Source: Formosa agariphila KMM 3901
GTDB lineage: Bacteria; Bacteroidota; Bacteroidia; Flavobacteriales; Flavobacteriaceae
DNA: 64,000 nucleotides
Direction of reading: 5' to 3'
Assembly: GCF_000723205.1 (NCBI RefSeq)
Contig: NZ_HG315671.1
Coordinates: 4,123,507 to 4,187,506, forward strand
The translations under genes were made by a program, and so were the position numbers. Positions 22,812 through 39,162 of the stretch are shown one piece after another. Below the pieces are notes generated by a model. The model saw only the letters and a list, made by a program, of their open reading frames with translations, did no database searches and was not told where the DNA came from. The first letter of the stretch is position 1. Every line of letters begins with the position of its first letter.

Positions 22812-22864
22812 CTATTAATTTAATTTTACTAAAAAAGATTATTGCCATGTTTACAGCTCAGGTG

Positions 22865-22872
22865 CAAAAATA
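22865..22872 (-). promoter_or_regulatory. -7 promoter element for the WcaJ-like gene
   Basis: On the minus strand TATTTTTG matches TAnnTTTG, giving a leader of about 45-50 bases before the GTG start. It implies the initiating transferase can be expressed apart from the upstream glycosyltransferase genes. Confidence 0.5.
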
Positions 22873-22916
22873 GAAAAGAAAGGGGATTATAGAAGCTAGT
22901 TGTTAACTTATTATTA

Positions 22917-24008
22917 TCATTTTAAACAATCTTTAAAAAACTCCAAATATTGTTTATTAATTGTATTCCAGTTATACTTTTCTACGATTTCATTTCGGCA
23001 ACCATTAACTTTTTCTAGGTAATCCTTTTTTTCAATTGACTCTATAATGCCCTTAACATCAATATCACTTTCAAAATAAAATGCAAAATCTCCTAAAATA
23101 GAGCTATTAAATTCATTTTTATGACCAACTATTAAAGCATTCGAAGACATTGCCTCTAATAATGAAGGATTGGTACCACCAACTGAATGTCCGTGGAAAT
23201 ACAAATTTGAATAATACCTTAAGTTATTAAGAATATCTATATCGTAAATACCACCAACAAATTTTATAAAATCATGATGTTGATACTTTTTCTTTAAATA
23301 AGCTCCAAACGCATTACTATCATGTTTACCTACAACTAAGAACGTTTCCTTTTTGTTAGACAACACAACTCCATCTAATATCGTTTCTAAGTTATTTTCG
23401 GGCTCAAAACGAGCCACAAGCATATTATACTTATATGGTTTTACTTCAAAATCGTTTAGAACCTTCTCATTTGGATTATGGAATAAATCTGCACCATACG
23501 CTATGTATTTTGATTGCACATTGTATTTAGTATTCAAATAATTTTGTATACCAACAGAATCTGAGATTAAATGGTCGCTAGATTTAACAGCTAAAGATTC
23601 TGCAACTTTTAAAAACGATTGAATTTTTTTAGAATATTTGGATCGCTTCCATTCTAAACCATCCATATTGGTAATAACCATACTTTTTTTAGGAAGCAAT
23701 TTGTACCAAACAGAACTGCTAGTATATCCGAGTTGAAGAAGGATATCGAAATTTCGTTTTCTTGAATCAAGAATACTATTAACATCGTAAATAAATTGTC
23801 CCGCAGTACCTATTCTATTCTCTGGATCTTTACAATGAATAATATGTACACCTTTAAATGTTTTTTCTTGATAAGGATGCATACTAGAGTTATACACATA
23901 AACATCGTGACCTTGATTTGCTAAATACACAGAAAAATACTCTGCAAATTGCTCAAAACCACCATGATAATTAGGTATTCCCCGTGTGCCCAATATTCCT
24001 ATCTTCAT
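22917..24008 (-). CDS. glycosyltransferase family 4, DUF1972 type
   Basis: The 363-residue GT-B enzyme begins MKIGILGTRGIPNYHGGFEQFAEY, the DUF1972 signature of rhamnosyltransferase-like enzymes, with the donor-site segments VARFEPENNLETILDGV and GTNPSLLEAMSSNALIVG. The ATG at 24008 gives the conserved N-terminus; the longer frame adds five unrelated residues. Its start overlaps the end of the O-antigen ligase-like gene by 38 bases. With rfbBACD in the locus, rhamnose is a reasonable guess for the donor sugar. Confidence 0.88.
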   Translation of the reverse strand: MKIGILGTRGIPNYHGGFEQFAEYFSVYLANQGHDVYVYNSSMHPYQEKTFKGVHIIHCKDPENRIGTAGQFIYDVNSILDSRKRNFDILLQLGYTSSSVWYKLLPKKSMVITNMDGLEWKRSKYSKKIQSFLKVAESLAVKSSDHLISDSVGIQNYLNTKYNVQSKYIAYGADLFHNPNEKVLNDFEVKPYKYNMLVARFEPENNLETILDGVVLSNKKETFLVVGKHDSNAFGAYLKKKYQHHDFIKFVGGIYDIDILNNLRYYSNLYFHGHSVGGTNPSLLEAMSSNALIVGHKNEFNSSILGDFAFYFESDIDVKGIIESIEKKDYLEKVNGCRNEIVEKYNWNTINKQYLEFFKDCLK

Positions 24009-25278
24009 GTCTAAAAAAATCAATTAAAAATAATGTATTCATAAAAATAAAAAATACAATCCCTTTATTTCTTTCAAAATAAGATTCAAAGAAAAGTGCA
24101 AACGTAATCATTATTAAAAACATTATATACAATATGTTCTTAGATTTTAACGCAATCCAAATACTAAACAAAAGGTAGCTTATAAAAAATAACAGCGAAA
24201 TAATACCTAAAGACACGAGTATTTGTAAATATTGATTGTGCACATTATAGCCTTCGTACCAATTTGGAGCTAAACCATAATACATATAATAGTAATCTAA
24301 ATAATTTTGAACATCCCCAACACCATAACCAAATAATAATTTATGGTCTTCGGTTGTATGATACAGGCCTATTTTTAAAAAGATATAACGTAACTCTAAA
24401 TCACTAATATTATCCTTATCTTCTTTACTAAACACATAAGCTTCAGACAAGTTATTTGTAGGTTGAAATGCTTCAATATTAAAATGAATACCCTCCAGGA
24501 ATCGTTCTTTAATTATAGGTACACAAGCCAATAGCGCAATGAATACAACCAAACCTCCAGACAATAGGAGTTTGTTTTTCATTTTCTGAACCAAAGAAAA
24601 AATCAAGAAAAAATATAGAGGAATACTTATAAATAAGACTGCTTTAGAGGCTGTTAAAATAAGTCCAATTCCTAAAATAGAAATTAAGCCAAAAACAAAC
24701 AGTTTATTCTTGAAAACAGAACTTAAATGTAATTTGAATGAATAATAGGTAACTATAAAAATGCTTAATGTTATATACAGTGCAAAATATACGGGATGCT
24801 GATCGTACAATTTAGTAAATTCATGAAAGAAAACCGAGTCTATTCCCTTTCCTGAAATTAGATTAAAACTACCATAACATAGTAATATAAAGGTTGCCAA
24901 AGTTGTTGATAAAGCAAAAACTACAAGAATACGTTTTATTTTAAAATCGGCATTTTTGAAACTAAATAATACAAAAGGGATTAAAAACAATAATAGGTTT
25001 TTATTGACCACTTTTAATCCATAATTAACATTATCACTCGTTAGTGCGCTTCCTATAATAATTAGAAAATAAAATAACGGAAATAAAAATCCGAAATTAT
25101 AATACTGCTTTAAATCTATTTTTTTTGTAAAAATTAAATAGAAGCTAAATACCCCAGCTAAAACAACCGAAATATTACCCACGTTTAGCATGTAAGGTAT
25201 TGTAACCGCCATTAAACACATAAGTGTTTCTTCTGGACGATTTAATCCTTGCTTTTTTATAGTATTTAGAACACTCAT
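23971..25278 (-). CDS. O-antigen ligase/polymerase-like membrane protein
   Basis: The 435-residue protein has about 11-12 membrane helices and a large periplasmic loop between residues of about 245 and 340. The segment KLYDQHPVYFALYITLSIF before the loop and the YNVHNQYLQILVSLGI segment after it, with a conserved-type His, are typical of the Wzy_C/WaaL family. It could ligate finished glycan to lipid A core or act as the polymerase. The other Wzy-like gene at 26410 makes a ligase role here more likely, but the two cannot be told apart by sequence alone. Confidence 0.82.
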   Translation of the reverse strand: MSVLNTIKKQGLNRPEETLMCLMAVTIPYMLNVGNISVVLAGVFSFYLIFTKKIDLKQYYNFGFLFPLFYFLIIIGSALTSDNVNYGLKVVNKNLLLFLIPFVLFSFKNADFKIKRILVVFALSTTLATFILLCYGSFNLISGKGIDSVFFHEFTKLYDQHPVYFALYITLSIFIVTYYSFKLHLSSVFKNKLFVFGLISILGIGLILTASKAVLFISIPLYFFLIFSLVQKMKNKLLLSGGLVVFIALLACVPIIKERFLEGIHFNIEAFQPTNNLSEAYVFSKEDKDNISDLELRYIFLKIGLYHTTEDHKLLFGYGVGDVQNYLDYYYMYYGLAPNWYEGYNVHNQYLQILVSLGIISLLFFISYLLFSIWIALKSKNILYIMFLIMITFALFFESYFERNKGIVFFIFMNTLFLIDFFRHEDRNIGHTGNT

Positions 25279-26438
25279 TATTTAAAGAATCGCATTAACA
25301 TTTTAGCTTTAGACTCCCAAGAATGTTCATTAATATTAATTAAAGGCTTGTTATTTTCTACCGATTTTAATGCGCTTGAAAAGTCTTCTGAAGAATCTAC
25401 TAAATATAAATGCTTTTCTAAATCTTGAAGTCCATTTCCTCTTGTACCAACTACTTTCTTACCTGTTAGTAAATATTCATATGCTTTAATTGAATCGCCT
25501 CCATGCTGCTTTTCTCTAATGTTATAAGGAACAATACAGATATCGAAATTTTGAACATAATTTGGATACTCATCATAATGCTTATCGCCTAAGAAATAAA
25601 CATTTTTTCTTTTTTCAATTTTTTCAAAGATCTCTTTATCTAGAATTTGACCTACAAAAACAAAAGAAGCATTCGGGTTATCGGCCGATAAATAATTAAT
25701 TAAATCTGTGTTTAATAAATAAGATATTTTACCTCCAAAACCAATAATTGGTCTTTGAATATGTTTTAAATCTTCGGGTACATGCTTTAAATTTTTAATG
25801 AAGTCTGTTTTAACTCCATTCTTAACTAAGGAAATATTTTCAACTTTAAAAGTGCTTTTATAAAATTCAACATTCTCTAAAGAATTCGTTATCCATATAA
25901 AAGTATTTTCGGATAGTGTTTTATACCCCGAATAAATTTCATTTTTAATTTTCTGGTAAGCTGGGAATTTTAGAAAATTATCCCAAGCATCAAAAACTTT
26001 ATTTTTAGAATCTAATTTAACTGCTAGTTTATAAGCAAACACATTTTGTAATACCACATTACTTGTTTCCATTTTAAGAACGTGTTTTGCTTTTTCAATA
26101 AAATTAAAATAGTGCTCGTCGTTATATTTAGCGATAAACCAAAGGTGTTTTTTAATAATTTGAGTAAAGATATCTTTAGAGTGGTAATCTACTACATATA
26201 TGTTTGTATCAACCTTACTAAGTGTAAAACCATTTTCTGACAACAGCATTTCACCATTAATTTTTTTACTCTGTTTATTATAAGCCAATTCTAAAAAAGT
26301 TGTGGGCCTATTAATTACTAATATTTTTTCAATTTCGGAGTCTTTGGAAAATGCTTTAATAAAGTGAACATCTCGTGTTCTAAACCCTTCTCTTTCGCTT
26401 TTTCTCCAATCATGAAATGGAATTATAATTACGTTCAT
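25278..26438 (-). CDS. glycosyltransferase (GT-B, family 1/4-like)
   Basis: The 386-residue protein has the two-domain GT-B layout. The N-terminal domain starts NVIIIPFHDWRKSEREGFRTRD. The C-terminal domain has PIIGFGGKISYLLNTDLI and the donor-binding HGGDSIKAYEYLLTGKKVVGT, with Glu residues in the usual place. It has no signal peptide. Its start overlaps the end of the Wzy-like gene by 29 bases and its stop touches the start of the ligase-like gene, so it is inside a tightly coupled operon. Sugar specificity is unknown. Confidence 0.82.
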   Translation of the reverse strand: MNVIIIPFHDWRKSEREGFRTRDVHFIKAFSKDSEIEKILVINRPTTFLELAYNKQSKKINGEMLLSENGFTLSKVDTNIYVVDYHSKDIFTQIIKKHLWFIAKYNDEHYFNFIEKAKHVLKMETSNVVLQNVFAYKLAVKLDSKNKVFDAWDNFLKFPAYQKIKNEIYSGYKTLSENTFIWITNSLENVEFYKSTFKVENISLVKNGVKTDFIKNLKHVPEDLKHIQRPIIGFGGKISYLLNTDLINYLSADNPNASFVFVGQILDKEIFEKIEKRKNVYFLGDKHYDEYPNYVQNFDICIVPYNIREKQHGGDSIKAYEYLLTGKKVVGTRGNGLQDLEKHLYLVDSSEDFSSALKSVENNKPLININEHSWESKAKMLMRFFK

Positions 26439-27651
26439 CTTTATAAAAATTAAAAAATAAAATAAGGCTAAATATTATACCGATCTCCGAAAATGGAGTT
26501 GTATAAAACATATAAATAAGTGCTAAAATACATACTGCATAGAAGCCTTGCCGGTTATTAATATTGAGTGTTTTTATTATAAAATACATGTATAATATAA
26601 CTACAAATAATCCTATTAATCCTAAGTCAAAATAGGTCCAAATTAACTGTGTAAAATGAATCGTGTTTTTAAACTTTCCTGTAGATATGTCAAAATATGA
26701 ATATGGGCCATCACCAATATATTTTGTATCTAAAACGTGTATTGCAGCAATAACAATTTGTTCTCTTTTGGCTGTACCTAGATTAAAGAAATGAAGCGAT
26801 TTTTCGGCCGTAAAATTACGCTCTAACGTTCCTCCAAGTCTAGAGGTAATTAATTCAATATTCCTAATATTGTAAATAAATAATGCTCCTAAAACTACAA
26901 TAAAACCAATCATAATTTTCCGAACAATCCTGTTTCTTGTAATTGCTTTATATAAATTCATAGAAATTATAATACCATAAAACAAAAACAATAATCCCTT
27001 AGAAATGTTAGATTCTGCTAATAGTAGCGTAATACTTAAATAAACAATTAATAGAAAAGTATATTTAGTAGATTGACGGATATTATTAATATTAAAATAC
27101 AAAGAGGCTATCACTAAAAACAGATAAAGTCCTAAAGAATGATCAGACTTAAGAAAGAAACTTCCGAATAGAAAATCAAAAGACGCAATTTGCTGTCCGC
27201 TATTATTAAAATGAATTAAAATGTCATAAAAATTTCTTTGAATAAGAAGTATAGGTAACTGTATAATGGCAACATATAATACAAGTTTATTAACAGTTCT
27301 TTTTTGAATATAATTCTCGTTTTTATTCATTTTAAAAAACAAATAACAACTAAGAGGTAATACTGAAAAAATATTATATAATACGATATGGAATAAAGTA
27401 GAATGATTTATTACTCCACTAATAATAATTACAATACTATAAAGAAAAGCAAAACCTACAACTTTATCAAACACAATTTTCCCTCTAATTAAAACGTACA
27501 GAGCGTAGTTACTTAACATGATTAAGCAAAGTGCTAATGTTAACCCTGTATTAGAAACCCCTAAAAAAAACTGCAGACTTCCTCCTAATAAGAATATCAA
27601 AACAAAAATTAATAAGAACGAGAACTGATATATTGTTTTAAGCTTTAACAT
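26410..27651 (-). CDS. Wzy-like O-antigen polymerase membrane protein
   Basis: The 413-residue protein is almost all membrane helices (about 11-12), with one larger loop near residues 265-330 containing the short polar stretch RLGGTLERNFTAEKS. Wzy proteins share little sequence, so the call rests on topology, size and position between glycosyltransferase genes and the flippase. It starts one base from the end of the GT2 gene. It is the best candidate for the repeat-unit polymerase of this locus. Confidence 0.72.
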   Translation of the reverse strand: MLKLKTIYQFSFLLIFVLIFLLGGSLQFFLGVSNTGLTLALCLIMLSNYALYVLIRGKIVFDKVVGFAFLYSIVIIISGVINHSTLFHIVLYNIFSVLPLSCYLFFKMNKNENYIQKRTVNKLVLYVAIIQLPILLIQRNFYDILIHFNNSGQQIASFDFLFGSFFLKSDHSLGLYLFLVIASLYFNINNIRQSTKYTFLLIVYLSITLLLAESNISKGLLFLFYGIIISMNLYKAITRNRIVRKIMIGFIVVLGALFIYNIRNIELITSRLGGTLERNFTAEKSLHFFNLGTAKREQIVIAAIHVLDTKYIGDGPYSYFDISTGKFKNTIHFTQLIWTYFDLGLIGLFVVILYMYFIIKTLNINNRQGFYAVCILALIYMFYTTPFSEIGIIFSLILFFNFYKDERNYNSIS

Positions 27652-28617
27652 TTACTTGATACTGGCCATCACCCCTTTTAAAACATATTTTAATTTCCAA
27701 AAGTGTTTATAGTTGAATAACAGAATTACAAAAGTAAGTACTAAATAAATTATAGCATTAAGAATATAAACAACTTTATTATCTACAAAATTTTGTTCAA
27801 ATTTAATTCCATTTCGAACTGCATAGAAAATTTTATTTTTTGAATCCGTTTTAATAAACCGATTGCTTAACAACCGCTTTTGGCTTGATTTTAAATGAAA
27901 TGATTTCTCTAAATCTTCTAAAACACTAGACAAAACTAAATATATTTTACCTTTATTTTTACTTATTCTATAAGAATAATCGTAATCATCTCCGTACAAG
28001 TAATAATTTATATCTGGCAACCCTATTGTATCAATTAATTTTCTGTGAAAAAATAGTCCGCCATAAGGCGCTACACTTACTTCACCATAATTAATACTAG
28101 TATCTAACGGAGTTGTTTCTTTTTGAGAAAATTTATCTAAAATATTAAATCCTAAAAATGAATTTTGACTGCCAAGCATTTTAAACGGATCTTTAGATTG
28201 TATCGCCTTTTTATATAATTCTCTATCTAATCTGTAAGACAGTAATGCCGTATTATTCTTTTTAAGATTAGTGTTACTTTGCCAAAAGAGTTTTAATTCT
28301 GATAAAGCATTCGCTTTAGGTTTATTATCATCATCTAAAATCCAAATAAACTCTGCACCTGTATTATAAGCTTCATTTAATCCTTGATAAAACCCATTTG
28401 CAGACCCCGTGTTCTCTTTTAAATCGATTAATTTTATACTTGTATTTACAGCAACAAGGTTTCTAATCTGATTAATAGAATACTCGTCACTACCATTAGA
28501 TACTATAATAATCTCGTCGACTAATTGACTTAAAGACGAATCTATTACTTCTTTGAGAAATGTAAATCGATTTCCGTAAGTTACCGTAACGACAGTTACC
28601 TTCATTTTAGAATTCAT
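27652..28617 (-). CDS. glycosyltransferase family 2
   Basis: The 321-residue GT-A enzyme has the N-terminal nucleotide-binding strand KVTVVTVTYGNRFTFLKEV, the metal-binding motif in WILDDDNKPKANAL and the acceptor-site segment YLYGDDYDYSYRI. A C-terminal membrane helix (about residues 285-305, YILNAIIYLVLTFVILLF) likely anchors it. The pattern resembles GlfT-like and rhamnosyl GT2 enzymes. I use ATG 28617; the frame also has a TTG at 28620 and a second ATG at 28605 that gives the more usual MKVTVVTV start. Confidence 0.87.
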   Translation of the reverse strand: MNSKMKVTVVTVTYGNRFTFLKEVIDSSLSQLVDEIIIVSNGSDEYSINQIRNLVAVNTSIKLIDLKENTGSANGFYQGLNEAYNTGAEFIWILDDDNKPKANALSELKLFWQSNTNLKKNNTALLSYRLDRELYKKAIQSKDPFKMLGSQNSFLGFNILDKFSQKETTPLDTSINYGEVSVAPYGGLFFHRKLIDTIGLPDINYYLYGDDYDYSYRISKNKGKIYLVLSSVLEDLEKSFHLKSSQKRLLSNRFIKTDSKNKIFYAVRNGIKFEQNFVDNKVVYILNAIIYLVLTFVILLFNYKHFWKLKYVLKGVMASIK

Positions 28618-28638
28618 CAATTAAGTTCTTAATTCTTA

Positions 28639-29178
28639 TTATAAATCTATTTCAATTTTTTTATCTAACAGTGGCGTAGATACAATGTATGGATCATACT
28701 GAGTATCGATTATTTTTCTAGAAAATGTTTTATAATCGGTAGTATTTAGGTAAATATTTGAACTAAATAATCTTGGAAAAGTAGCGCTATCTATGTCCAT
28801 AACACCTTGATTAAACTTAATTACTATCGATTTAATTTGTATATCCGATTCTATTTTATTCTCTCCTAAATCGACTCTAAAACGATAAGGCAAAACGCCT
28901 GAAGGTAATTTAAACGATACAACCTGAAATTCATCTTTCCCTTTAATATCTATATACATTCTTTTATCTGCACTAAATCCTGATTCTGGATCATCTTCAA
29001 TAAAAAATAATTGTAATCTGTCGTCTTCTAATATTTTGACATTTAAATCAACACTAAAAATATTGTCTTTTTCAATTTTATTAATACTAGTTTTTTTTTC
29101 AGAAATTTTATTTTTTTCATTTTTTCCTTCACAAGAAAACAATAAAAAAACACATGCTATTAAAAATATATTCCTCAT
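28639..29178 (-). CDS. small lipoprotein of unknown function in the glycan operon
   Basis: The 179-residue protein starts with a lipoprotein signal peptide, lipobox ending at Cys16 (LLFSCEGKN), then a Lys- and Glu-rich linker and an all-beta-looking domain of about 130 residues. The segments VDLNVKILEDDRLQLFFIED and IDIKGKDEFQVVSFKLP, then LGENKIESDIQIKSIVI, have the rhythm of a beta-sandwich of carbohydrate-binding type seen at the ends of some glycan-synthesis membrane proteins. That likeness is my inference. It stands between the flippase and GT2 genes. Confidence 0.6.
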   Translation of the reverse strand: MRNIFLIACVFLLFSCEGKNEKNKISEKKTSINKIEKDNIFSVDLNVKILEDDRLQLFFIEDDPESGFSADKRMYIDIKGKDEFQVVSFKLPSGVLPYRFRVDLGENKIESDIQIKSIVIKFNQGVMDIDSATFPRLFSSNIYLNTTDYKTFSRKIIDTQYDPYIVSTPLLDKKIEIDL

Positions 29179-29220: not shown

Positions 29221-30582
29221 TTAACTTTTATTAGATTTTAATATGTTATTCAAGAATTGAGGCATATAAAAAGTAATTAAGTTAGATTTTTTGTAAACAT
29301 AAAACGCACAACTCATATTTAAAATTATAGGGGAACATGCAGATATAATAGCTGCTCCTAATAAACCATATAAAGGAACAAATTTATATAAGCATAATAA
29401 AGTGCATACAAATACCACAGAAATAATATTACGCAATGCTTTTTCACTACCTGTCATACCCATAAATATACCTGCAGAACCGCAAAAAGAGCTAATTAAC
29501 AGCCCTAAAACAAGAATCGCTAGTATCTGCTTTCCTTGTAAAAATTCTTCCCCAAAGAAGCTTAAAATATATCCAGAGAATAAAATTATGACAACAGATA
29601 AAATAGACCCGAAAATAAAAATCAATTTTGAAGATTGAAATAATAATTTTTGCAATTCAACTCTTTTATTATTCCAATATAGTTCAGCAAACTTTGGTGC
29701 AGAAATAGTATTAACAACCACCAAAACGATACTTATTAGTTGGGCCACTTTAAAACAAATATTAAAAATACCGACTTCTTCTGATGTGCCATAAGTTTCT
29801 AAAAAAAAAGCAGAAGAGGTACCCAACAACGATGTGATAACCAAAACAATCATCATAGGAAATGTTGTCTTTAGTAAATCTTTAGTTTTTACCTCGGACT
29901 TATAAACATCTACCGATTCTTTCTTTTTATTGAAGAATTTTATAATTGGTATAAAAGATAAAATCATACTTAAAATTATGGCACCTATTAAAGCGTAAAT
30001 CGCATTAACTACATTATCGCTATAACTTAATGCCAATAAAAAAATTATTATAAACAAAGGCCTGTTAACACTTCGTAAATACTCACTAATTTGTAATTTT
30101 TTTAGTCCTCTAATAAATTCTATATTAACAATACTAACCGTTAAAAAAGGCAAAGCAACAGCACCTATTCTTAAAACCTGAACATAGATGTCGTTTTTAA
30201 ATAAATTCTCTGCTACGGTTTCCGAAAAAAAGTATAACAACAGTGACAATAACAGAGAAAAAGGTAAGGCTAAATAAAAAACGTATTTATAAATATTTTT
30301 TATTTTATCATTGCCATTTTTAGTTTTATTGTACTGACCAACAAACCGTAATAGAGCCATATCTAAACCTAAAGCCCCAATAATTGATAAACTAATTAAA
30401 GCATTTAAAGTAAGTGTATATACACCCGCTCCCGATGCACCATATTTTCTAGAAATAATTAAAACAGTAATGTAACTTAATAACATACCAAAAATTTTCA
30501 GGACAAATGTTATGGCACTACCAAACAAAAGTTCTTTTAAATTGGCGTCTGAGTTGAGTTTACTGATTAGGTTTTTAAACAA
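29221..30582 (-). CDS. Wzx-type flippase (polysaccharide transport protein)
   Basis: The 453-residue protein has 12-14 membrane helices and the N-terminal pattern ELLFGSAITFVLKIFGMLLSYI followed by ISRKYGASGAGVYTLTL, typical of MATE/MOP-family polysaccharide flippases. It moves the lipid-linked repeat unit across the inner membrane. The start is TTG at 30580-30582; no ATG is available at the conserved N-terminus. It is the first gene after the large hairpin at 30629-30697 and has a -7 element at 30618-30625, so it probably heads the distal half of the locus. Confidence 0.88.
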   Translation of the reverse strand: MFKNLISKLNSDANLKELLFGSAITFVLKIFGMLLSYITVLIISRKYGASGAGVYTLTLNALISLSIIGALGLDMALLRFVGQYNKTKNGNDKIKNIYKYVFYLALPFSLLLSLLLYFFSETVAENLFKNDIYVQVLRIGAVALPFLTVSIVNIEFIRGLKKLQISEYLRSVNRPLFIIIFLLALSYSDNVVNAIYALIGAIILSMILSFIPIIKFFNKKKESVDVYKSEVKTKDLLKTTFPMMIVLVITSLLGTSSAFFLETYGTSEEVGIFNICFKVAQLISIVLVVVNTISAPKFAELYWNNKRVELQKLLFQSSKLIFIFGSILSVVIILFSGYILSFFGEEFLQGKQILAILVLGLLISSFCGSAGIFMGMTGSEKALRNIISVVFVCTLLCLYKFVPLYGLLGAAIISACSPIILNMSCAFYVYKKSNLITFYMPQFLNNILKSNKS

Positions 30583-30723: not shown

Positions 30724-31977
30724 TTACACAATCATTCCTGCAGCAACAGTTTCGTTAGTTGAGTCGTCTACCAAAACAATGCTTCCTGTAGAGCGGTTTT
30801 CTCTATAAGAATCTATCATTAATGGCTTTGTTGTTCTAATCTTAACTTTTGCTATATCATTCATATTAAGCTCAGCATTACCCTCAACACGGTTTAAGGT
30901 TTCTATATCTATTTTATAAACGACATCTTTAATCATTGCTTTTTGATCGTTAGACGTATGCTTTATTGTGTATTTAGTACGTGGTTTTGCTCCTGTACTA
31001 TTTAACCAACATAACATTACTTCTATATCTTGTGATGCTTCTGGTTTGTTATTAGAACGCACAATCATGTCTCCTCTTCCAATATCGATATCGTCTTCTA
31101 ATTGAATCGATACTGATTGCGGCGCAAAGGCTTCTTCTAATTCTTGATCGTATAAATTTATACCTTTTATTTTAGATGTAAATCCTGAAGGCATTACTGT
31201 GATCTCATCTCCAATACGAAATACACCACTAGCTACACGTCCTGCATAACCACGGTAATCTCTATGAGAATCACTCTGAGGTCTAAGTACAGTTTGCACA
31301 GCAAAACGTGCATCAACCTTATTAATATCACTACTAATATGCATCGTTTCTAACACATATAGCATCGGTGAACCTTGGTACCAAGGCATATTCTCTGAGC
31401 GGTTAACAACATTATCTCCATCTAAAGCACTCATAGGAATAAATCTAACATCCTTAATTAGCATCTTAGATGAAATTTCTTCAAATTGAGAAACGATATT
31501 ATTAAACACCTCTTCTGAATAATCCACTAAATCCATTTTGTTAACACACACAATAACATGTGGTATGTTTAACAATGACGCAATAAATGCATGACGCTTT
31601 GTTTGTTCGATGACACCATGTCTGGCGTCTATTAAAATAGTAGCCACATTTGCTGTTGAAGCTCCTGTAACCATATTTCTAGTGTACTGAATATGACCTG
31701 GAGTATCTGCAATGATAAATTTACGCTTAGGTGTTGTAAAATATCTGTACGCAACGTCTATTGTTATTCCTTGTTCACGTTCGTCCTTTAAACCGTCTGT
31801 AAATAGGGCTAAATCGACGCCTGCATGACCTTTTTTCTTACTTGTATTTTCTATAGATTGTAACTGATCTTCAAAAATAGATTTTGAATCGTATAGTAAA
31901 CGACCAATTAAGGTACTTTTTCCGTCATCTACACTCCCAGCTGTTGTGAATCTTAATAATTGATTATTATCTAACAT
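30724..31977 (-). CDS. cysN: sulfate adenylyltransferase subunit 1 (GTPase)
   Basis: The 417-residue protein is the EF-Tu-like GTPase that drives APS synthesis together with CysD. G1 is GSVDDGKS at residues 14-21, G3 is DTPGHIQYTRN, G4 is NKMD, and two C-terminal beta-barrel domains follow. It is not fused to a CysC domain; a separate cysC is present. It lies 33 bases after cysD. In a glycan locus, with no sulfite-reduction genes in view, the likely purpose is PAPS for sulfation. Confidence 0.96.
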   Translation of the reverse strand: MLDNNQLLRFTTAGSVDDGKSTLIGRLLYDSKSIFEDQLQSIENTSKKKGHAGVDLALFTDGLKDEREQGITIDVAYRYFTTPKRKFIIADTPGHIQYTRNMVTGASTANVATILIDARHGVIEQTKRHAFIASLLNIPHVIVCVNKMDLVDYSEEVFNNIVSQFEEISSKMLIKDVRFIPMSALDGDNVVNRSENMPWYQGSPMLYVLETMHISSDINKVDARFAVQTVLRPQSDSHRDYRGYAGRVASGVFRIGDEITVMPSGFTSKIKGINLYDQELEEAFAPQSVSIQLEDDIDIGRGDMIVRSNNKPEASQDIEVMLCWLNSTGAKPRTKYTIKHTSNDQKAMIKDVVYKIDIETLNRVEGNAELNMNDIAKVKIRTTKPLMIDSYRENRSTGSIVLVDDSTNETVAAGMIV

Positions 31978-32010
31978 ATTACTTCTTTCTTAAATTGATT
32001 GGAGAATTGA

Positions 32011-32922
32011 TTAAAAATAGCCTTGACGTTTTCTGTCTTCCATAGCTGATTCTGAACGTTTATCGTCACTTCTGTTACCTCGTTCTGTTTGGCGCATTCC
32101 TGCAACCTCATCTGCGATTTTGGCTAACGTATCGGCATCAGATTCGATTCCACCTGTAATGGTAATATCTCCTAATGTTCTAAATCTTATTTTTTTAGTA
32201 ACTACCTCTTCATGGTCTTCAAGAATTAAAAATTCAGAATTAGGAATCCAAGCATCTTGTCTCCATACAACCTCACGTTCATGAGCGAAGTATAACGAAG
32301 GTATAGCGATGTTTTCACGTTTAATATAGTTCCAAACATCCATTTCAGTCCAGTTACTTATAGGGAAAGCTCTAAAATGCTCACCTTCAAAATATTTACC
32401 GTTTAAAATGTTCCATAATTCTGGACGTTGGTTTTTCGGGTCCCACTGCCCGAAATCATCTCTATGAGAAAAGAAACGTTCTTTTGCTCTTGCTTTTTCT
32501 TCGTCACGACGACCACCTCCAATAGCACAATCTACCTTATTTGCTTCAATAGCATCTAAAAGCGTAGTAATTTGAAGTGCATTACGTGTAGCATTTTTAC
32601 CTTTTTCTTCAGCAACTCGTCCGTCATCTATCGATTCTTGAACAGAACCAACAATTAAGTTTACACCTAAATCTTTAATAATATCATCTCTAAACTGAAT
32701 AGTTTCAGGGAAATTATGTCCTGTATCTACGTGCATTAAAGGAAATGGAATCTTTGAAGGATAAAATGCCTTTTTAGCCAAATGTGTTAATACAATTGAA
32801 TCTTTCCCTCCAGAAAATAAAATTACTGGATTCTGAAATTGAGCCCATACTTCTCTTAAGATATAGATCGCTTCACTCTCTAATTCATCTAAATAATTTA
32901 AATAATACTTATTACTACTCAT
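32011..32922 (-). CDS. cysD: sulfate adenylyltransferase subunit 2
   Basis: The 303-residue PP-loop ATP pyrophosphatase has SGGKDS at residues 37-42, MHVDTGHNFPETIQFRD, and the C-terminal segment TERGNRSDDKRSESAMEDRK typical of CysD. With CysN it makes adenosine 5'-phosphosulfate from ATP and sulfate. Its ATG overlaps the end of cysC by 8 bases. Length and motifs are normal. Confidence 0.97.
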   Translation of the reverse strand: MSSNKYYLNYLDELESEAIYILREVWAQFQNPVILFSGGKDSIVLTHLAKKAFYPSKIPFPLMHVDTGHNFPETIQFRDDIIKDLGVNLIVGSVQESIDDGRVAEEKGKNATRNALQITTLLDAIEANKVDCAIGGGRRDEEKARAKERFFSHRDDFGQWDPKNQRPELWNILNGKYFEGEHFRAFPISNWTEMDVWNYIKRENIAIPSLYFAHEREVVWRQDAWIPNSEFLILEDHEEVVTKKIRFRTLGDITITGGIESDADTLAKIADEVAGMRQTERGNRSDDKRSESAMEDRKRQGYF

Positions 32923-33520
32923 TGCTCAATAATTTTAATTTAGGTAATATATATTCTACTATTTTATTTGCTGCATCTTCTACAGATACACCTTCTGTTT
33001 TTATTTCTACATCTGGATTTTCAGGAGCCTCGTAAGGCGCAGAAATTCCAGTCATATTTTTTATTTCTCCTGCTCTAGCTTTTTTATAAAGCCCTTTAGT
33101 ATCACGGCGTTCACACTCTTCAACACTAGTATTTACATAAATCTCAACAAAATTATCGTCCTTAACAATAGATTTAATATTTAATCTATCTTTTTTATAA
33201 GGCGAAACAAAAGCTGCTAGCGTTACAACACCAGCATCAATCATTAGATTTGAGATTTCTGCTATCCTGCGGATATTCTCTTTACGATCTTCTGGAGCAA
33301 AGGTTAAATCACAATTGATTCCTTTTCGGATATTATCTCCGTCTAATGTATAGGTTTTTATTCCTTTTTCAAATAATTTTTGTTCAACCACATTCGCTAT
33401 AGTCGATTTCCCTGAACCTGAAAGCCCAGTAAACCAAATTAAAAATGAATTATGTTGATTATTACTTTGTCTATCTTTTCGGGATATTTGATAATCGTGA
33501 GGTATAATATTCTCTTTCAT
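32915..33520 (-). CDS. cysC: adenylylsulfate kinase
   Basis: The 201-residue kinase phosphorylates APS to PAPS. Walker A GLSGSGKST is at residues 32-40, followed by TYTLDGDNIRKGINCDLTF, the APS-binding DGD and FSxxDR-like segment (LTFAPEDRKENIRR), and VYVNTS-like IYVNTSVEECERRD. It overlaps both neighbours by a few bases (DUF2061 gene and cysD), so it is translationally coupled. Its presence means this locus makes PAPS, not only APS. Confidence 0.96.
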   Translation of the reverse strand: MKENIIPHDYQISRKDRQSNNQHNSFLIWFTGLSGSGKSTIANVVEQKLFEKGIKTYTLDGDNIRKGINCDLTFAPEDRKENIRRIAEISNLMIDAGVVTLAAFVSPYKKDRLNIKSIVKDDNFVEIYVNTSVEECERRDTKGLYKKARAGEIKNMTGISAPYEAPENPDVEIKTEGVSVEDAANKIVEYILPKLKLLSNE

Positions 33521-33939
33521 TATTCGTGAGTATGACGTTTATTTTTATCTAAACCAAAATTAATTTTATACCAAGCTTTCTCATGTAAATAGTATAAAAT
33601 CATTTTAGTTAGTACTTCTGTTCCACCTACTTTTAAACCAATCATTGGGTCTCCAGATATTAACCAAGCTAATGTCATGGTATCCAAAGTGCCTACAACA
33701 CGCCAAGTAACCGTTTTAAAGATATGACGTTTATTACTCTCTTCCATATCGACCTTAAACCATACACGTTCGTGTAAATAGTATAAAATCATTTTGGTTG
33801 TAACTTCAGCCGCACCAATTTTAAGACCTGTAAGCGGATCTCCAGAAATTAACCAAGACAACAAAATAGTGTCTAAAGTCCCAACTATTCGCCATGTAAT
33901 TGCCTTAACAATATGTCTTTTATGTGAAGTATCTTTCAT
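33520..33939 (-). CDS. DUF2061 protein with two tandem domains
   Basis: The 139-residue protein consists of two copies of a 57-residue unit, residues 7-63 and 70-126, identical at 40 of 57 positions by my count. Each unit has the DUF2061 pattern KRHI-K--TWR-VGTLDT, a hydrophobic helix with WLISGDP and the end TKMILYYLHE--W. Each could form one or two membrane helices. It lies between cysQ and cysC and overlaps cysC. DUF2061 proteins commonly accompany sulfate-activation genes; their role is unknown. Confidence 0.88.
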   Translation of the reverse strand: MKDTSHKRHIVKAITWRIVGTLDTILLSWLISGDPLTGLKIGAAEVTTKMILYYLHERVWFKVDMEESNKRHIFKTVTWRVVGTLDTMTLAWLISGDPMIGLKVGGTEVLTKMILYYLHEKAWYKINFGLDKNKRHTHE

Positions 33940-34008
33940 CTTTTATAGACTTTTATGCCTATTATGTTTAGAACAAAAGTAAGCTTTTTTTAATTAAAAA
34001 CAATTATC

Positions 34009-34803
34009 CTATAGGGTTACTAGGAAAAAAGGATTTAATAAATTTTCTTTATTGTATAATAACGCCTGATCCGTTTCTTTCGAAATAACTTCTACACCAA
34101 CAGCATTACAAATTGCCTGACCTGCAGCAGTATCCCACTCCATTGTTGGAGCAAATCTAGGATAAACATCTGCATTTCCTTCTGCTACTAAACAAAATTT
34201 AAGAGAACTTCCTTTGGAAACAATTTCAACATCACTTCCATTTGCTTTTAAAGTTTCTACAAAGTCAAGTGTATCCTGACTCATATGCGAACGGCTTCCA
34301 ACAACTTGAACTGGATTAGAATTAGAATCTTTAGGTTGCAATGCTTCTGCATGTTCTAAAATATACGCTATAGACGTGTTATGGTCTTCTAATTCAACTT
34401 TAAAACCTTCGTTATTTGTTACATCACCATAATATAATGTCTTAACTGCAGGCACATAAATAACGCCTAAAACAGGCTTTCCATTAGTTACAAGTGCAAT
34501 ATTTACTGTAAACTCGCCATTACGCTTAATAAATTCTTTTGTGCCATCTACTGGGTCTACAATCCAGCACGTTTCCCAAGTTTTTCTAACCTGGTAATCT
34601 GTTTGTTTATTCTCTTCACTAATAATTGGAATCTCTGATGGAATTAAGAATGAATTAATAATGTCATTCGCTTTTTTATCAGCTTCAGTTAAGGGTGATT
34701 TATCATCTTTTAATTCCACATTAAAAGCTGTATCATACACTTGCATAATAACTTCTCCTGCTTTTAACGATGCTTCGATAGCGGTTTTTAAATTTGAATT
34801 CAT
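34009..34803 (-). CDS. cysQ: 3'(2'),5'-bisphosphate nucleotidase
   Basis: The 264-residue protein is a lithium-sensitive type phosphatase that removes the 3' phosphate from PAP (and PAPS), the by-product of sulfotransfer. The metal-binding motif DPVDGTKEF is at residues 83-91, and the second signature is MEWDTAAGQAI near the C-terminus. It starts one base from the rfbD stop and precedes the DUF2061-cysC-cysD-cysN set. PAP recycling is needed when PAPS is used by sulfotransferases or PAPS reductase, which fits the sulfation hypothesis. Confidence 0.93.
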   Translation of the reverse strand: MNSNLKTAIEASLKAGEVIMQVYDTAFNVELKDDKSPLTEADKKANDIINSFLIPSEIPIISEENKQTDYQVRKTWETCWIVDPVDGTKEFIKRNGEFTVNIALVTNGKPVLGVIYVPAVKTLYYGDVTNNEGFKVELEDHNTSIAYILEHAEALQPKDSNSNPVQVVGSRSHMSQDTLDFVETLKANGSDVEIVSKGSSLKFCLVAEGNADVYPRFAPTMEWDTAAGQAICNAVGVEVISKETDQALLYNKENLLNPFFLVTL

Positions 34804-35652
34804 TTATAAATTTTTAATAGCTTGCTTTAAACTTACCCTCCAATGCGGAATGTCAATTTTAAAAGTTTCTTTTATTTTTGATTTATCCATTACGCTAAAT
34901 TGTGGGCGAGCAGCAGGTGTTGGATAGGCTTCTGTTTTAATAGGGAAAACTTTGGTATTTGTTTCTGTAATTTCAAAAATAGCATCAGCAAAATCATACC
35001 AACTGGCTACCCCTTCATTACTATAATGATATAACCCATAAGTGGTTGGGTTATCATTTATAATTTTCAACATTACATTAGCTAAATCTGTTGCATAAGT
35101 CGGCGTACCTATCTGATCTGCAACTACGCTTAATTCTGGTCTAGTTTCTGCTAAACGTAACATCGTTTTCATGAAATTATTAGCATGTTCTGAGTATAAC
35201 CAAGATGTTCTTAAAATAAAATATGCATCTAAATTATCTTGTATAGCTTGTTCTCCTTCAAGTTTTGTTAATCCATAAATGCCTAATGGTTCTGCAATAT
35301 CAGTTTCAGAATATAAAGACGAAGATTTTCCATCGAACACAAAATCTGTAGATACATGAATGAGCTTCACATTATTAGCTTTACAAGCTATAGCTAAATG
35401 TTTAGCACCATCATTATTTACTTTACGCGCTAAATCAATATCAGTTTCCGCTTTATCTACAGCTGTATAAGCAGCACAGTTTATACACCAATCGATATTA
35501 TTATTTTGAAAAAAATCAGCAACATGTTGCTGACTTGTAATATCTAAATTTTCTGAATCTGTATATATAAATTGCAGTTGATTGTTATGTTTACTAACAT
35601 CCTTAATACAGGCTGCTAATTGTCCGTTTCCTCCGGTAACTAAAATTTTCAT
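34804..35652 (-). CDS. rfbD: dTDP-4-dehydrorhamnose reductase
   Basis: The 282-residue short-chain dehydrogenase-type enzyme makes dTDP-L-rhamnose, the last step of the pathway. The NAD(P) site is ILVTGGNGQLAACI at the N-terminus and the catalytic YGLTKLEGE gives Tyr and Lys spaced as YxxxK. The INCAAYTAVDKAE segment is typical for RfbD. It directly abuts rfbC upstream and cysQ downstream, with 0-1 base spacing, in an rfbB-A-C-D order. Confidence 0.96.
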   Translation of the reverse strand: MKILVTGGNGQLAACIKDVSKHNNQLQFIYTDSENLDITSQQHVADFFQNNNIDWCINCAAYTAVDKAETDIDLARKVNNDGAKHLAIACKANNVKLIHVSTDFVFDGKSSSLYSETDIAEPLGIYGLTKLEGEQAIQDNLDAYFILRTSWLYSEHANNFMKTMLRLAETRPELSVVADQIGTPTYATDLANVMLKIINDNPTTYGLYHYSNEGVASWYDFADAIFEITETNTKVFPIKTEAYPTPAARPQFSVMDKSKIKETFKIDIPHWRVSLKQAIKNL

Positions 35653-36197
35653 TATAAAGTTGCGTTTTCAAATGAAGGTGATATGGTATCTTTTTCAGAT
35701 ATCAACATCTCACTTTCATCAATTTGCCAATCGATATTTAAGGTCTTGTCGTTATAAATAATACTGCCTTCTGATGCTTTGTTATAAAAGTTGTCACATT
35801 TATAAGAAAAAATAGCTGTTTCACTTAACACGACAAATCCGTGAGCAAATCCACGAGGCACAAATAACTGCCTTTTATTATCTTCAGTTAAATTAACGGC
35901 GACATGTTGACCAAAAGTTGGAGACCCTTTTCTAATATCTACAGCGACATCTAAAACCTCACCTTTTACAACACGGACTAACTTTGCTTGTGCATGCTCG
36001 CCTAATTGATAATGAAGTCCTCGTAAAACACCTCTAGAAGAAAATGATTCGTTGTCCTGAACGAATGTTACATCTAATCCTGTTAATTTATTAAAAGTCT
36101 CTGCATTATAAGATTCAAGAAAATATCCTCTTTTATCACCAAACACTTGCGGTTCTAAAATAAAACAATCCTTTAATTTAGTTTCTGTAACAGTCAT
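35652..36197 (-). CDS. rfbC: dTDP-4-dehydrorhamnose 3,5-epimerase
   Basis: The 181-residue cupin epimerase has the family segments GDKRGYFLESYN, SFSSRGVLRGLHYQ, AKLVRVVKGEVLDVAVDIRKGSP (shortened here as the VKGEVLDVAVD core) and FVPRGFAHGF, with the catalytic His in GLHYQ. It converts the 4-keto intermediate for RfbD. Its ends overlap rfbA and rfbD by one base each, showing a compact operon. Confidence 0.96.
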   Translation of the reverse strand: MTVTETKLKDCFILEPQVFGDKRGYFLESYNAETFNKLTGLDVTFVQDNESFSSRGVLRGLHYQLGEHAQAKLVRVVKGEVLDVAVDIRKGSPTFGQHVAVNLTEDNKRQLFVPRGFAHGFVVLSETAIFSYKCDNFYNKASEGSIIYNDKTLNIDWQIDESEMLISEKDTISPSFENATL

Positions 36198-37063
36198 TAT
36201 TTTTTATTTAATAATCCCAATAAGTTCTTACCATAACCACTCTTAAGTAAAGGTTGCGCTAAGGCTTCAAATTGTTCTGAAGAGATATACCCCATTTCGA
36301 AAGCTGCTGCCTCAATAGAACCAATTTTTAATCCCTGACGTTCTTCTAATACCTCAACAAATTGAGATGCTTGCATAAGCGATTGGAATGTACCTGTATC
36401 TAACCAAGCCGTACCTCTGTCTAAAATACTAACACTTAATTTCCCTTGCTCTAAGTAAACTTTATTAACATCGGTAATTTCTAATTCACCTCTATGACTC
36501 GGGGCTATATTTTTAGCAATTTCTACCACCGAGTTATCATAAAAATAAATACCAGGAACAGCATAATTAGATTTTGGATGCTCGGGTTTTTCTTCAATAG
36601 AAATGGCTTGTCCATTTTCATCAAAATCTACTACTCCGTAACGTTCTGGGTCATGAACACGATATGCATAAATGATTCCACCATCTGGATCATTATTCTC
36701 TTGTAATAATTTACCTAAACCAGTTCCGTAAAAAATGTTATCTCCTAAAATTAAAGCTACTTTTTCATCTCCAATAAAGTCTGCACCAATAATAAAAGCT
36801 TCTGCTAAACCATTTGGCTCTTCTTGTACAGCGTATTCGAATTTACATCCGAACTTTTCTCCATCTCCCAATAAATCTTTAAATAATGGTAAATCTTTAG
36901 GCGTTGAAATGATTAAGATCTCATTAATACCGGCATACATTAATGTAGATAACGGATAATAAATCATTGGTTTATCGTAAATAGGCATTAATTGCTTACT
37001 TACAGATAATGTTAAAGGGTGTAACCTTGTTCCTGATCCTCCTGCTAGAATAATTCCTTTCAT
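36197..37063 (-). CDS. rfbA: glucose-1-phosphate thymidylyltransferase
   Basis: The 288-residue enzyme makes dTDP-glucose, the first step of dTDP-rhamnose synthesis. The nucleotide site is [18 protein letters not shown], with [24 protein letters not shown] and [13 protein letters not shown] use ATG at 37063, which gives the conserved N-terminus and the family length; the reading frame extends 29 codons further upstream into rfbB without conserved sequence. It begins one base after the rfbB stop. Confidence 0.96.
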
Positions 37064-37064
37064 C

Positions 37065-38084
37065 TTAATTTTTGTATTTATTGATATACCACTCGATAGT
37101 TTTCTTAATTCCTGTTTCGAAATTTTCATCGGCTTTCCAGCCCAATTCATTTTCTAACTTTGTAGCATCTATTGCATAACGGAAATCATGTCCTGCACGG
37201 TCTTTTACAAAAGTAATTTGATCTGCATAAGGCTTTTCTTTTGGATATATACCGTCTAAAATACCACAAATTGTATTTACAATGTACATATTATCACGTT
37301 CATTTCTACCTCCAATATTATACGTTTCTCCAAACTTTCCTGTTTTATAAACTAAAGCAATTCCTTTACAGTGATCTAAAACATATAACCAGTCACGGAT
37401 ATTTTTCCCATCGCCATAAATTGGAATATCTTCACCAGAAAGTGCCTTTCTAATAATTGTTGGAATTAATTTTTCATCGTGCTGTTTTGGGCCGTAGTTG
37501 TTAGAACAATTAGTTGTTAAAACATTCATACCATATGTATGGAAATAACTTCTTACAACAAAATCTGAAGAAGCTTTAGAAGCACTATATGGGCTGTTAG
37601 GTGCATATGGAGTCGTTTCTAAAAACAGACCTGTTTCACCTAAAGTTCCGTACACCTCATCTGTAGAAATGTGATGAAATTTATTATTCTCGCAACCTTC
37701 TTTAAATTCGAAAGGTCCATTCATCCAATGTTTTTTAGCGACATCAATTAAATTGAAAGTTCCAAAAATATTTGTTTGCATAAATGCATCTGGATTTTTA
37801 ATAGAATTATCCACATGTGATTCAGCTGCAAAATGAATGATTCCAGAAAATTTATATTTCTCAAACAATTCCTCTATTAAATTACGATCACAAATATCGC
37901 CTTCAACAAAAGTATAATTTGGATTACCCTCTACTTCAGATACATTTTCTAAATCGCCAGCATAAGTTAACTTATCCAGGTTTACAAGATGAATATCTTT
38001 ATTTTCTTCTAAAAAATAAGGAACAAAATTCGAGCCAATGAAACCTGCCCCTCCGGTTACTAATATTGAAGTTTTAACCTTCAT
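37065..38084 (-). CDS. rfbB: dTDP-glucose 4,6-dehydratase
   Basis: The 339-residue enzyme has the NAD site [10 protein letters not shown] (glycines from residue 11), [22 protein letters not shown] and the catalytic YSASKASSD, all as in RfbB. It makes dTDP-4-keto-6-deoxyglucose, the branch point for rhamnose and other deoxysugars. Its start overlaps the end of the Wzz-like gene by 11 bases. The rfbC and rfbD genes that follow indicate that rhamnose is the end product. Confidence 0.97.
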
Positions 38085-39162
38085 AATTTTTTATAAATTT
38101 AATGATTTTTAAACCTGCTATTAATAAATAAATTAATAGAAATGCTAAAATTGGTAATGTAAGCATATAATTTTTATACAAGTTAGACACTTTGTATCCT
38201 ATATTTTGAAACCCTGAAACAGTTTCAAAAAGCACAATACCATCTAATCGATTTGCTTCGAGATCAACTAACTTAACTCTTAAGTCGACTTCTTTATTTA
38301 ACAACTCATACTCTTTGGTAACTGATTTATCTTTTTCAAAAGACAAACCATCACCTATTGTGATTCCTTTTCTTGACTGAGATTTTGACTCTTCTTTTAA
38401 AACAGAAATATAAACTTTCTGTAAGGAATCTATTTTATTTAAAGATGTTGTTAAATTTTCCTCTTCAAATTTATAAACCTTATTTCTTCGATCTAATAAA
38501 CTTTGAGAATATGTATTTTCAAAAACACGATTTAACCCCTGCTCTAAATCTTTAAAAATATCATTTTTTAATGCTTCTACTTTAATTTCATAGATTTTAG
38601 TAGAATAAATATCACGTCTCTCAATAAATTTCTCATAAGAAAAACTACTTACCGTTGAACTATCCAAAGAGAGTAAAAACTCCTCGTATTCTAACATTAA
38701 ATCTGTTTCCGATTCTGGTCCAGGACCAACATCAAAACTTTTAATACTTTCAGCAGTTTCTAAATCTATTTTAAAAATTTCAGAAAGATCATTATATTCA
38801 CCATTCTCTATAAGTGCATTATAGTAGCTTATACTATTAATTAATGGAAATTTAGAATCGTAATACGGCTTAACTATCATGTTAGCCCCATAAATTGTAG
38901 GCTTATTTTTATCGATAAAATAACCAGAAATTGCAGCAATTACCATAACTAAGGCTATAATTTTTGCATAAATTACAATAGGCTTTAATGCATAAATTAT
39001 CAGCTTAAACAGATACTCAAATAAACGTCCAATTAATTTAAAAAAGTTAGAAAACCCTTTTCCAATATAATTAAACAACACGATTAAGTCGACTTCATCT
39101 GTCGAATTATGGTGCTTTTGAGGTAAATTAGAATTAGAATTTTCTGGCAAGTTTGTATTCAT
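38074..39162 (-). CDS. Wzz-like chain-length regulator / membrane protein
   Basis: The 362-residue protein has two membrane helices, at about residues 60-83 and 335-354, that bracket a large periplasmic domain with helical, coiled-coil-like segments (residues about 180-320). The N-terminus is cytosolic and polar, and the short C-terminal tail is basic. This is the topology of Wzz co-polymerases, though the Pro-Gly-rich motif next to the second helix is not evident. Position at the head of the rfb genes supports the call. It starts 5 bases after the DUF6909-like stop. Confidence 0.65.
   Translation of the reverse strand: MNTNLPENSNSNLPQKHHNSTDEVDLIVLFNYIGKGFSNFFKLIGRLFEYLFKLIIYALKPIVIYAKIIALVMVIAAISGYFIDKNKPTIYGANMIVKPYYDSKFPLINSISYYNALIENGEYNDLSEIFKIDLETAESIKSFDVGPGPESETDLMLEYEEFLLSLDSSTVSSFSYEKFIERRDIYSTKIYEIKVEALKNDIFKDLEQGLNRVFENTYSQSLLDRRNKVYKFEEENLTTSLNKIDSLQKVYISVLKEESKSQSRKGITIGDGLSFEKDKSVTKEYELLNKEVDLRVKLVDLEANRLDGIVLFETVSGFQNIGYKVSNLYKNYMLTLPILAFLLIYLLIAGLKIIKFIKNYEG

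Follow-up and report, generated by a model that had tools for sequence, protein, structure and literature searches.

We analysed 64,000 nucleotides of DNA from Formosa agariphila KMM 3901 (positions 4123507-4187506 of C1, the contig of a one-contig genome of 4,228,350 bases; this whole stretch is referred to as the window), in which four genes of sulfate activation and by-product removal (cysQ, cysC, cysD and cysN), together with a gene for a membrane protein of the DUF2061 family, form a five-gene module inside a polysaccharide locus. Comparison with relatives suggests that the main, chemically unproven, role of this module is the placement of sulfate onto surface sugars. We consider it probable that the module supplies 3'-phosphoadenosine-5'-phosphosulfate (PAPS) for glycan sulfation from an operon in the rhamnose locus, with sulfotransferases encoded at a distance and with an ATP sulfurylase shared with sulfate assimilation. 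The identities of the enzymes rest on family cut-offs, and the fluxes proposed below are deduced from the known roles of the families.

The module consists of the following genes (positions within the window):

34009-34803, minus strand: cysQ, 3'(2'),5'-bisphosphate nucleotidase, i.e. 3'-phosphoadenosine-5'-phosphate (PAP) phosphatase (PF00459, 160 bits; TIGR01331, 259.5 bits, cut-off 228.8)
33520-33939, minus strand: tandem DUF2061 membrane protein of 139 aa with two DUF2061 repeats (PF09834, two stretches)
32915-33520, minus strand: cysC, adenosine-5'-phosphosulfate (APS) kinase (PF01583, 222 bits; TIGR00455, 249.5 bits, cut-off 138.7)
32011-32922, minus strand: cysD, ATP sulfurylase small subunit (PF01507; TIGR02039, 410.4 bits, cut-off 396.6)
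30724-31977, minus strand: cysN, ATP sulfurylase large subunit (GTPase), not fused to CysC (PF00009; TIGR02034, 553.7 bits, cut-off 336.1)

CysD, CysN, CysC and CysQ each score above their own NCBIfam cut-off, and a PDB sequence search matched CysC to APS kinases (E ~5e-53). The five genes are carried on one strand and are flanked by the rml genes and a flippase gene, so that cysD, cysN and cysC sit jointly within a polysaccharide cluster, as they do in the PAPS operons of Cobetia and Vibrio. rmlD and cysQ abut, the DUF2061 gene overlaps cysC, which in turn overlaps cysD, and only short gaps separate cysQ from the DUF2061 gene (69 bases) and cysD from cysN (33 bases). Judging from these coordinates, rmlD-cysQ-DUF2061-cysC-cysD-cysN are therefore likely to constitute one operon.

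The distribution of cysC was analysed in a sample of 70 Flavobacteriaceae genomes from 69 genera, all searched with the same families. One of the genomes, G027, carries a 19,901-base region that matches Aequorivita aquimaris, a member of Flavobacteriaceae, letter for letter. Genomes with an APS kinase scoring >100 bits were regarded as cysC-positive (34/70); PF01583 was counted in 47 genomes, of which the 13 with weak matches alone (<28 bits) were scored as cysC-less. The threshold for counting a sulfotransferase was E <= 0.001, and matches lying solely below the Pfam cut-off accounted for one of the 29 genomes with PF13469 and two of the 21 with PF03567. As many as 32 of the 34 cysC genomes, versus one of the 36 cysC-less ones, contained a member of any of four sulfotransferase families (Fisher p 2.7e-16). 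The counts for the individual families in cysC genomes and in the others were, respectively, (i) 28/34 and 1/36 for PF13469, (ii) 27/34 and 1/36 for PF00685, (iii) 10/34 and 0/36 for PF17784, and (iv) 21/34 and 0/36 for PF03567. Among the 58 genomes with a completeness of 90% or more and a contamination of 5% or less, sulfotransferases were found in 27/29 with cysC versus 1/29 without it. In contrast, the reductase CysH was detected in 28/34 cysC genomes and 24/36 cysC-less ones (p 0.17), and the six cysC genomes from which it is absent have a completeness of 99, 99, 99, 93, 86 and 84%.

Shared ancestry was taken into account with an RpoB tree (FastTree) of 66 of the 70 genomes; G003, G041 and G066, which gave no match for RpoB, and G065, in which RpoB is partial, were omitted. 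On this tree a test of dependent evolution linked cysC with the four sulfotransferase families (likelihood ratio 68.7, p 4e-14; with three families, PF03567 left out, likelihood ratio 57.0, p 1.3e-11), and revealed no link of CysH with sulfotransferases (p 0.39) or of cysC with CysH (p 0.33). The minimum number of changes on the tree was 15 for cysC and 13 for the sulfotransferases (three-family set), and the pattern therefore does not reflect one old split. A general need for cysC in sulfate reduction throughout the family was rejected on the CysH profile and the tree test.

Regions of at most 20 kb surrounding cysC were compared for the window and the 33 other genomes (34 loci). The order cysQ-DUF2061-cysC-cysD-cysN was present in 25 of them, the window included, at times with an extra open reading frame (ORF) in between; thus, the arrangement of the module is not a matter of chance. 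A recognised sulfotransferase was located within 20 kb of cysC in 21/34 genomes, where a generous chance model with 12 sulfotransferase genes per genome at random places predicts approximately 4.8. Members of the rmlC family were found in 14/34 loci, again including the window, and in 13 of the 33 other loci the module follows such a gene within a few genes. In many loci the rmlC family and the families of DUF6909 (10/34), of the membrane protein at 38074-39162 and of the lipoprotein at 28639-29178 make up a common upstream part, followed after cysN by a variable part that often carries sulfotransferases. The initial annotation of this DNA had proposed that PAPS is made here for sulfation, and both the tree-corrected association and the proximity of sulfotransferases to cysC speak in its favour. 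As a separate observation, five genomes carry a member of a family of small ORFs (cluster c18, ~115-130 aa) within or near the module, where it looks like an insertion: between cysD and cysN (L018, L021, L024), between cysC and cysD (L019) or after cysN (L020).

Whole-genome searches with the four sulfotransferase families (PF13469, PF00685, PF17784 and PF03567) placed no match in the window. A sulfotransferase in the module's own cluster, a feature of operons of the Cobetia and Vibrio type, was thus found for none of the four. The unassigned proteins encoded at 26410-27651, 28639-29178 and 38074-39162 were considered as hidden sulfotransferases and rejected, as they gave no sulfotransferase match and the genome-wide searches place none there. 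Elsewhere in the genome PF13469 matched at C1:3456465 (31.8 bits, above the cut-off) and at C1:2774354 (21.1 bits, below it), and PF03567 matched at C1:3471223-3471831 with 67 bits in the genome search and 69 bits in the protein scan (cut-off 22); the whole-genome searches gave no match to PF00685 or PF17784 anywhere. Three sulfotransferase-like genes are thereby located at C1:3.456-3.472 Mb (L009:9576-10385, L231:59-844 and L231:4817-5500, the last being the PF03567 gene, C1:3471217-3471900). The two companions of the PF03567 candidate are weaker, one lying above and one below its cut-off; L231:59-844, near the PF03567 gene, displays only weak PF13469 and Stf0 matches below the cut-offs. PDB sequence searches with three sulfotransferase-like proteins of this genome gave no significant match; one of them included a NodH-type sulfotransferase (E 0.9). 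All three genes of C1:3.456-3.472 Mb (at 3.456, 3.467 and 3.471 Mb) are part of a single glycan region that also encodes glycosyltransferases and a transporter of the Wzt/Wzm type, i.e. a second capsule locus of the ABC-transporter type, ~0.68 Mb from the module. Their sequences make it likely that the sulfotransferases served by the module are encoded elsewhere in the genome, with these genes as the candidates. The initial annotation was correct as to the order and coordinates of the five genes between the dTDP-rhamnose genes and the flippase gene; its statement that no sulfotransferase is recognisable in the window held for all four families, and its suggestion that the enzyme might be encoded elsewhere now has three candidates behind it.

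In the mechanism that we propose, CysD and CysN would make APS, which CysC would phosphorylate to PAPS. PAPS-dependent sulfotransferases, probably those of the second capsule locus (C1:3.456-3.472 Mb), would attach the sulfate to surface polysaccharide; the by-product PAP would be cleared by CysQ. APS from the only CysD found must also feed a CysH/CysI cluster at C1:446-449 kb.

The acceptor might instead be the rhamnose glycan of the locus in the window, sulfated in trans by the enzymes encoded at C1:3.46-3.47 Mb. Such a product would agree with the conserved placement of the module near rml genes and with Cobetia marina, where, according to the cluster description in PMC11766843, a PAPS operon in a dTDP-rhamnose capsule cluster accompanies sulfated rhamnose. 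We nevertheless regard it as unlikely, since the three candidates are surrounded by glycosyltransferase-like genes in a region with its own Wzt/Wzm-type transporter. Moreover, in G014, which shares its genus with F. agariphila, a sulfotransferase is located 4.7 kb from cysC, whereas the part after cysN in F. agariphila differs from that of G014 and holds no counterpart of this in-locus sulfotransferase. A sulfated lipid or small molecule, in place of a polysaccharide, is less probable still. The sequence families of the sulfotransferases leave the acceptor unfixed, and the cysC-cysND cluster of Kordia antarctica is described as adjoining a non-ribosomal peptide synthetase cluster (PMC7477175); however, the flippase family of the window is present in seven CysC loci, and five of these seven also contain the main sulfotransferase cluster.

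Genes of sulfate assimilation are also present in F. agariphila. The window contains no CysH (PF01507 matches CysD only) and no PF01077 match, cysJ not having been searched for. In the whole genome PF01507 gave two matches, CysD of the window and CysH at C1:446624. cysH and cysI are located at C1:446-449 kb, unlinked to the module at C1:4.15 Mb, and the neighbours of CysH comprise a siroheme sulfite/nitrite reductase-like protein, a siroheme methyltransferase and cysteine/methionine genes (neighbours without a scan were named by reading their sequences). CysH and the reductase pass the Pfam cut-offs but no NCBIfam equivalog cut-off (for CysH, 125 versus 154 bits). Thus, the absence of reductases from the locus does not mean their absence from the genome: the earlier remark that cysH, cysI and cysJ are missing stands for cysH and cysI in the window and fails for the genome. 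The cysD of the window is the sole one found, with no second cysDN copy elsewhere. In view of this gene content, the cysDN of the window must serve assimilation too, and the initial annotation erred for cysDN in doubting that assimilation is a purpose of these genes; cysC may share this purpose.

CysH of F. agariphila is free of an iron-sulfur (Fe-S) cluster, has an SFG loop and finds its best PDB sequence matches in solved PAPS reductases, although Fe-S-free relatives also occur without cysC. As this loop resembles that of PAPS reductases, PAPS may be shared with CysH, in which case cysC would serve both branches. In a tree of 40 CysH sequences (not all CysH found; the Fe-S-type region of G025, L051, was left out) we distinguished Fe-S types, with CC and CxxC motifs, from Fe-S-free types, mostly of 206-214 aa (29/40). 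The loop TTNFRPYE characterises 17 of the 29 Fe-S-free proteins (10 in cysC-less and 7 in cysC genomes), and the loop [ST]TSFGxYS a further 11, all from cysC genomes, including that of F. agariphila; one is intermediate. The limitation of the [ST]TSFGxYS type to cysC genomes implies that PAPS may be what F. agariphila reduces, and that its assimilation may depend on cysC.

Several observations weigh against a role of the module in sulfation: (i) cysH and cysI are present in the genome, and no cysD besides that of the module was found; (ii) the locus contains no recognised sulfotransferase, the nearest being 0.68 Mb distant; (iii) G030 and G041 carry cysC and no recognised sulfotransferase (2/34); (iv) G005 carries sulfotransferases without cysC (1/36); (v) an APS kinase outside PF01583 is conceivable in the cysC-less genomes; and (vi) CysH of the [ST]TSFGxYS type is accompanied by cysC in 11/11 cases, versus 7/17 for TTNFRPYE (p 0.0016, no tree correction). 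G005 (90% complete) combines sulfotransferases and an Fe-S CysH with no recognised cysC or cysD, which possibly reflects an assembly gap. Were the module to supply PAPS for CysH only, in plain assimilation, its polysaccharide neighbourhood would be accidental. Points (i) and (vi) would fit this explanation, as would the grouping of cysH, a cysI-like gene and the siroheme methyltransferase elsewhere and the similarity of the Fe-S-free CysH to solved PAPS reductases. We consider it improbable, because cysC is tightly linked to sulfotransferases and not to CysH (28/34 versus 24/36; tree p 0.33), CysH is missing from 6/34 cysC genomes, an rmlC-family gene precedes the module in 13/33 other loci, and a sulfotransferase is near in 21/34. 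PAPS supply for glycan sulfation is thus the explanation that we prefer.

The Fe-S-free CysH of cysC-less genomes (L068, L070, L071, L073, L077-L081 and L083; compare L008:8523-9149) presumably reduce APS, like moss APR-B, since no APS kinase was recognised in those genomes. APR-B is described as reducing APS without a cluster, and the passages concerned report Fe-S-free APS reductases for moss and, by sequence, for some algae (PMC2275785). In four closely related cysC-less genomes CysH is under purifying selection, with a ratio of nonsynonymous to synonymous substitutions (dN/dS) of 0.05-0.08 in five pairs; an additional comparison, between two other genomes, had reached saturation. These signs suggest that a large part of Flavobacteriaceae can reduce sulfate without CysC, and the family profile predicts a bacterial Fe-S-free APS reductase.

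Genes of the DUF2061 family accompany both branches. The tandem form was found beside cysC in 28/34 cysC loci, and a single-unit gene beside CysH in 20/40 CysH regions. Among the matches listed in a scan of genome contigs, which was no census, an APS kinase domain carries an N-terminal DUF2061 fusion in two metagenome-assembled genomes (MAGs), a Sulfurimonas MAG (L143:2971-3696) and a marine-biofilm MAG (L125:9270-9995), whose gene sets also hold cysD, cysN, a separate cysC and cysQ. The protein of the window has four long predicted helices (AlphaFold2, mean pLDDT 85), and gave no PDB sequence match and no significant PDB fold match. From these data we infer that DUF2061 is a membrane partner of sulfate-activating enzymes; a function as an anchor or in sulfate entry would be a guess. 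In the parts of the Caulobacter and Shewanella reports concerned, DUF2061 genes appear as table entries in lists of iron-related regulation, which the idea of a membrane partner leaves unexplained. A literature search, with most subscription journals outside it, yielded no report tying DUF2061 to sulfate activation, and this uncharacterised family now gains a testable context. Taken together, these observations permit a joint reading for Flavobacteriaceae, for which we see somewhat less than an even chance: APS would be reduced by Fe-S-free CysH of a kind that one would ordinarily label PAPS reductases, APS kinase would be a sulfation gene, DUF2061 would be a membrane component of sulfonucleotide metabolism (single beside CysH, tandem beside CysC, or fused to APS kinase), and the loop of CysH (TTNFRPYE or [ST]TSFGxYS) would mark the nucleotide that is reduced.

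The module is surrounded by the following features of the glycan locus:

38074-39162, minus strand: membrane protein without a Pfam match, possibly a chain-length determinant (a guess from the appearance of the sequence)
37065-38084, minus strand: rmlB-like gene (broad Pfam family and context)
36197-37150, minus strand: rmlA (broad Pfam family and context)
35652-36197, minus strand: rmlC (Pfam)
34804-35652, minus strand: rmlD (Pfam)
29221-30582, minus strand: Wzx-type flippase (PF01943, 85.8 bits; MatE, 40.9 bits)
28639-29178, minus strand: predicted lipoprotein of 179 aa, of a family without a Pfam match
21453-28620, minus strand: variable glycan part with glycosyltransferases, one O-antigen-ligase-family protein, one unassigned multi-membrane protein and a priming sugar transferase (Pfam)

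The family of the membrane protein at 38074-39162 is represented in 12/34 CysC loci, including the window. The lipoprotein family of 28639-29178 was detected near cysN in 9/34 CysC loci and also in Winogradskyella aurantia (L084:15049), where it adjoins a sulfotransferase. In seven of the nine loci it immediately follows cysN, and in the window it lies one gene further; this family is possibly part of the machinery for sulfated glycans.

Sets of ATP sulfurylase and APS kinase dedicated to sulfation are known from rhizobia, in which nodPQ, accompanying nodH, constitutes an extra copy. The genome of F. agariphila, unlike this type, has no second copy of cysDN. A closer likeness is offered by Cobetia marina KMM 1449, whose sulfated capsule cluster, as described in PMC11766843, combines cysN/C, cysD and cysQ with dTDP-rhamnose genes, so that in both organisms PAPS genes and cysQ reside inside a dTDP-rhamnose polysaccharide cluster. 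The described Cobetia cluster differs in that (i) cysN and cysC are fused, whereas CysC is free here, (ii) a sulfate permease gene accompanies the PAPS genes, whereas DUF2061 is the membrane protein of the set here, and (iii) sulfotransferase genes are part of the cluster, whereas the candidates lie 0.68 Mb away here. Vibrio sp. KMM 8419 likewise carries cysC, cysN and cysD in a cluster with dTDP-rhamnose genes; there, by the published description, cysCND are second copies, and the cluster itself contains sulfotransferases, whereas F. agariphila has a sole cysD, and its set includes cysQ and DUF2061 (PMC11641403). The same source treats the joint presence of PAPS and sulfotransferase genes in one polysaccharide cluster as a hallmark of sulfated polysaccharide. 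Because an in-cluster sulfotransferase was sought and not found, we class the locus in the window not as a member of the sulfated-capsule clusters but as a variant that would operate in the same manner.

Within Flavobacteriaceae, Kordia antarctica resembles F. agariphila in that cysC lies apart from cysH, there from a cysND-cysH-sir cluster; an additional cysND accompanies cysC in Kordia, according to the passages on these clusters, whereas a single cysD is present here (PMC7477175). The authors of that study regard cysC as completing assimilation and Kordia without cysC as incomplete, and the family profile presented above argues against this view. Our literature search found no report linking cysC to sulfation across Flavobacteriaceae. 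PAPS genes in sulfated-capsule clusters are thus known, and less expected are the association with DUF2061, the location of the sulfotransferases far from the module and the signs that CysC is dispensable. The sulfotransferase missing from the locus has given way to named candidates, and the comparison suggests that, in Flavobacteriaceae, cysC may mark genomes with surface sulfation.

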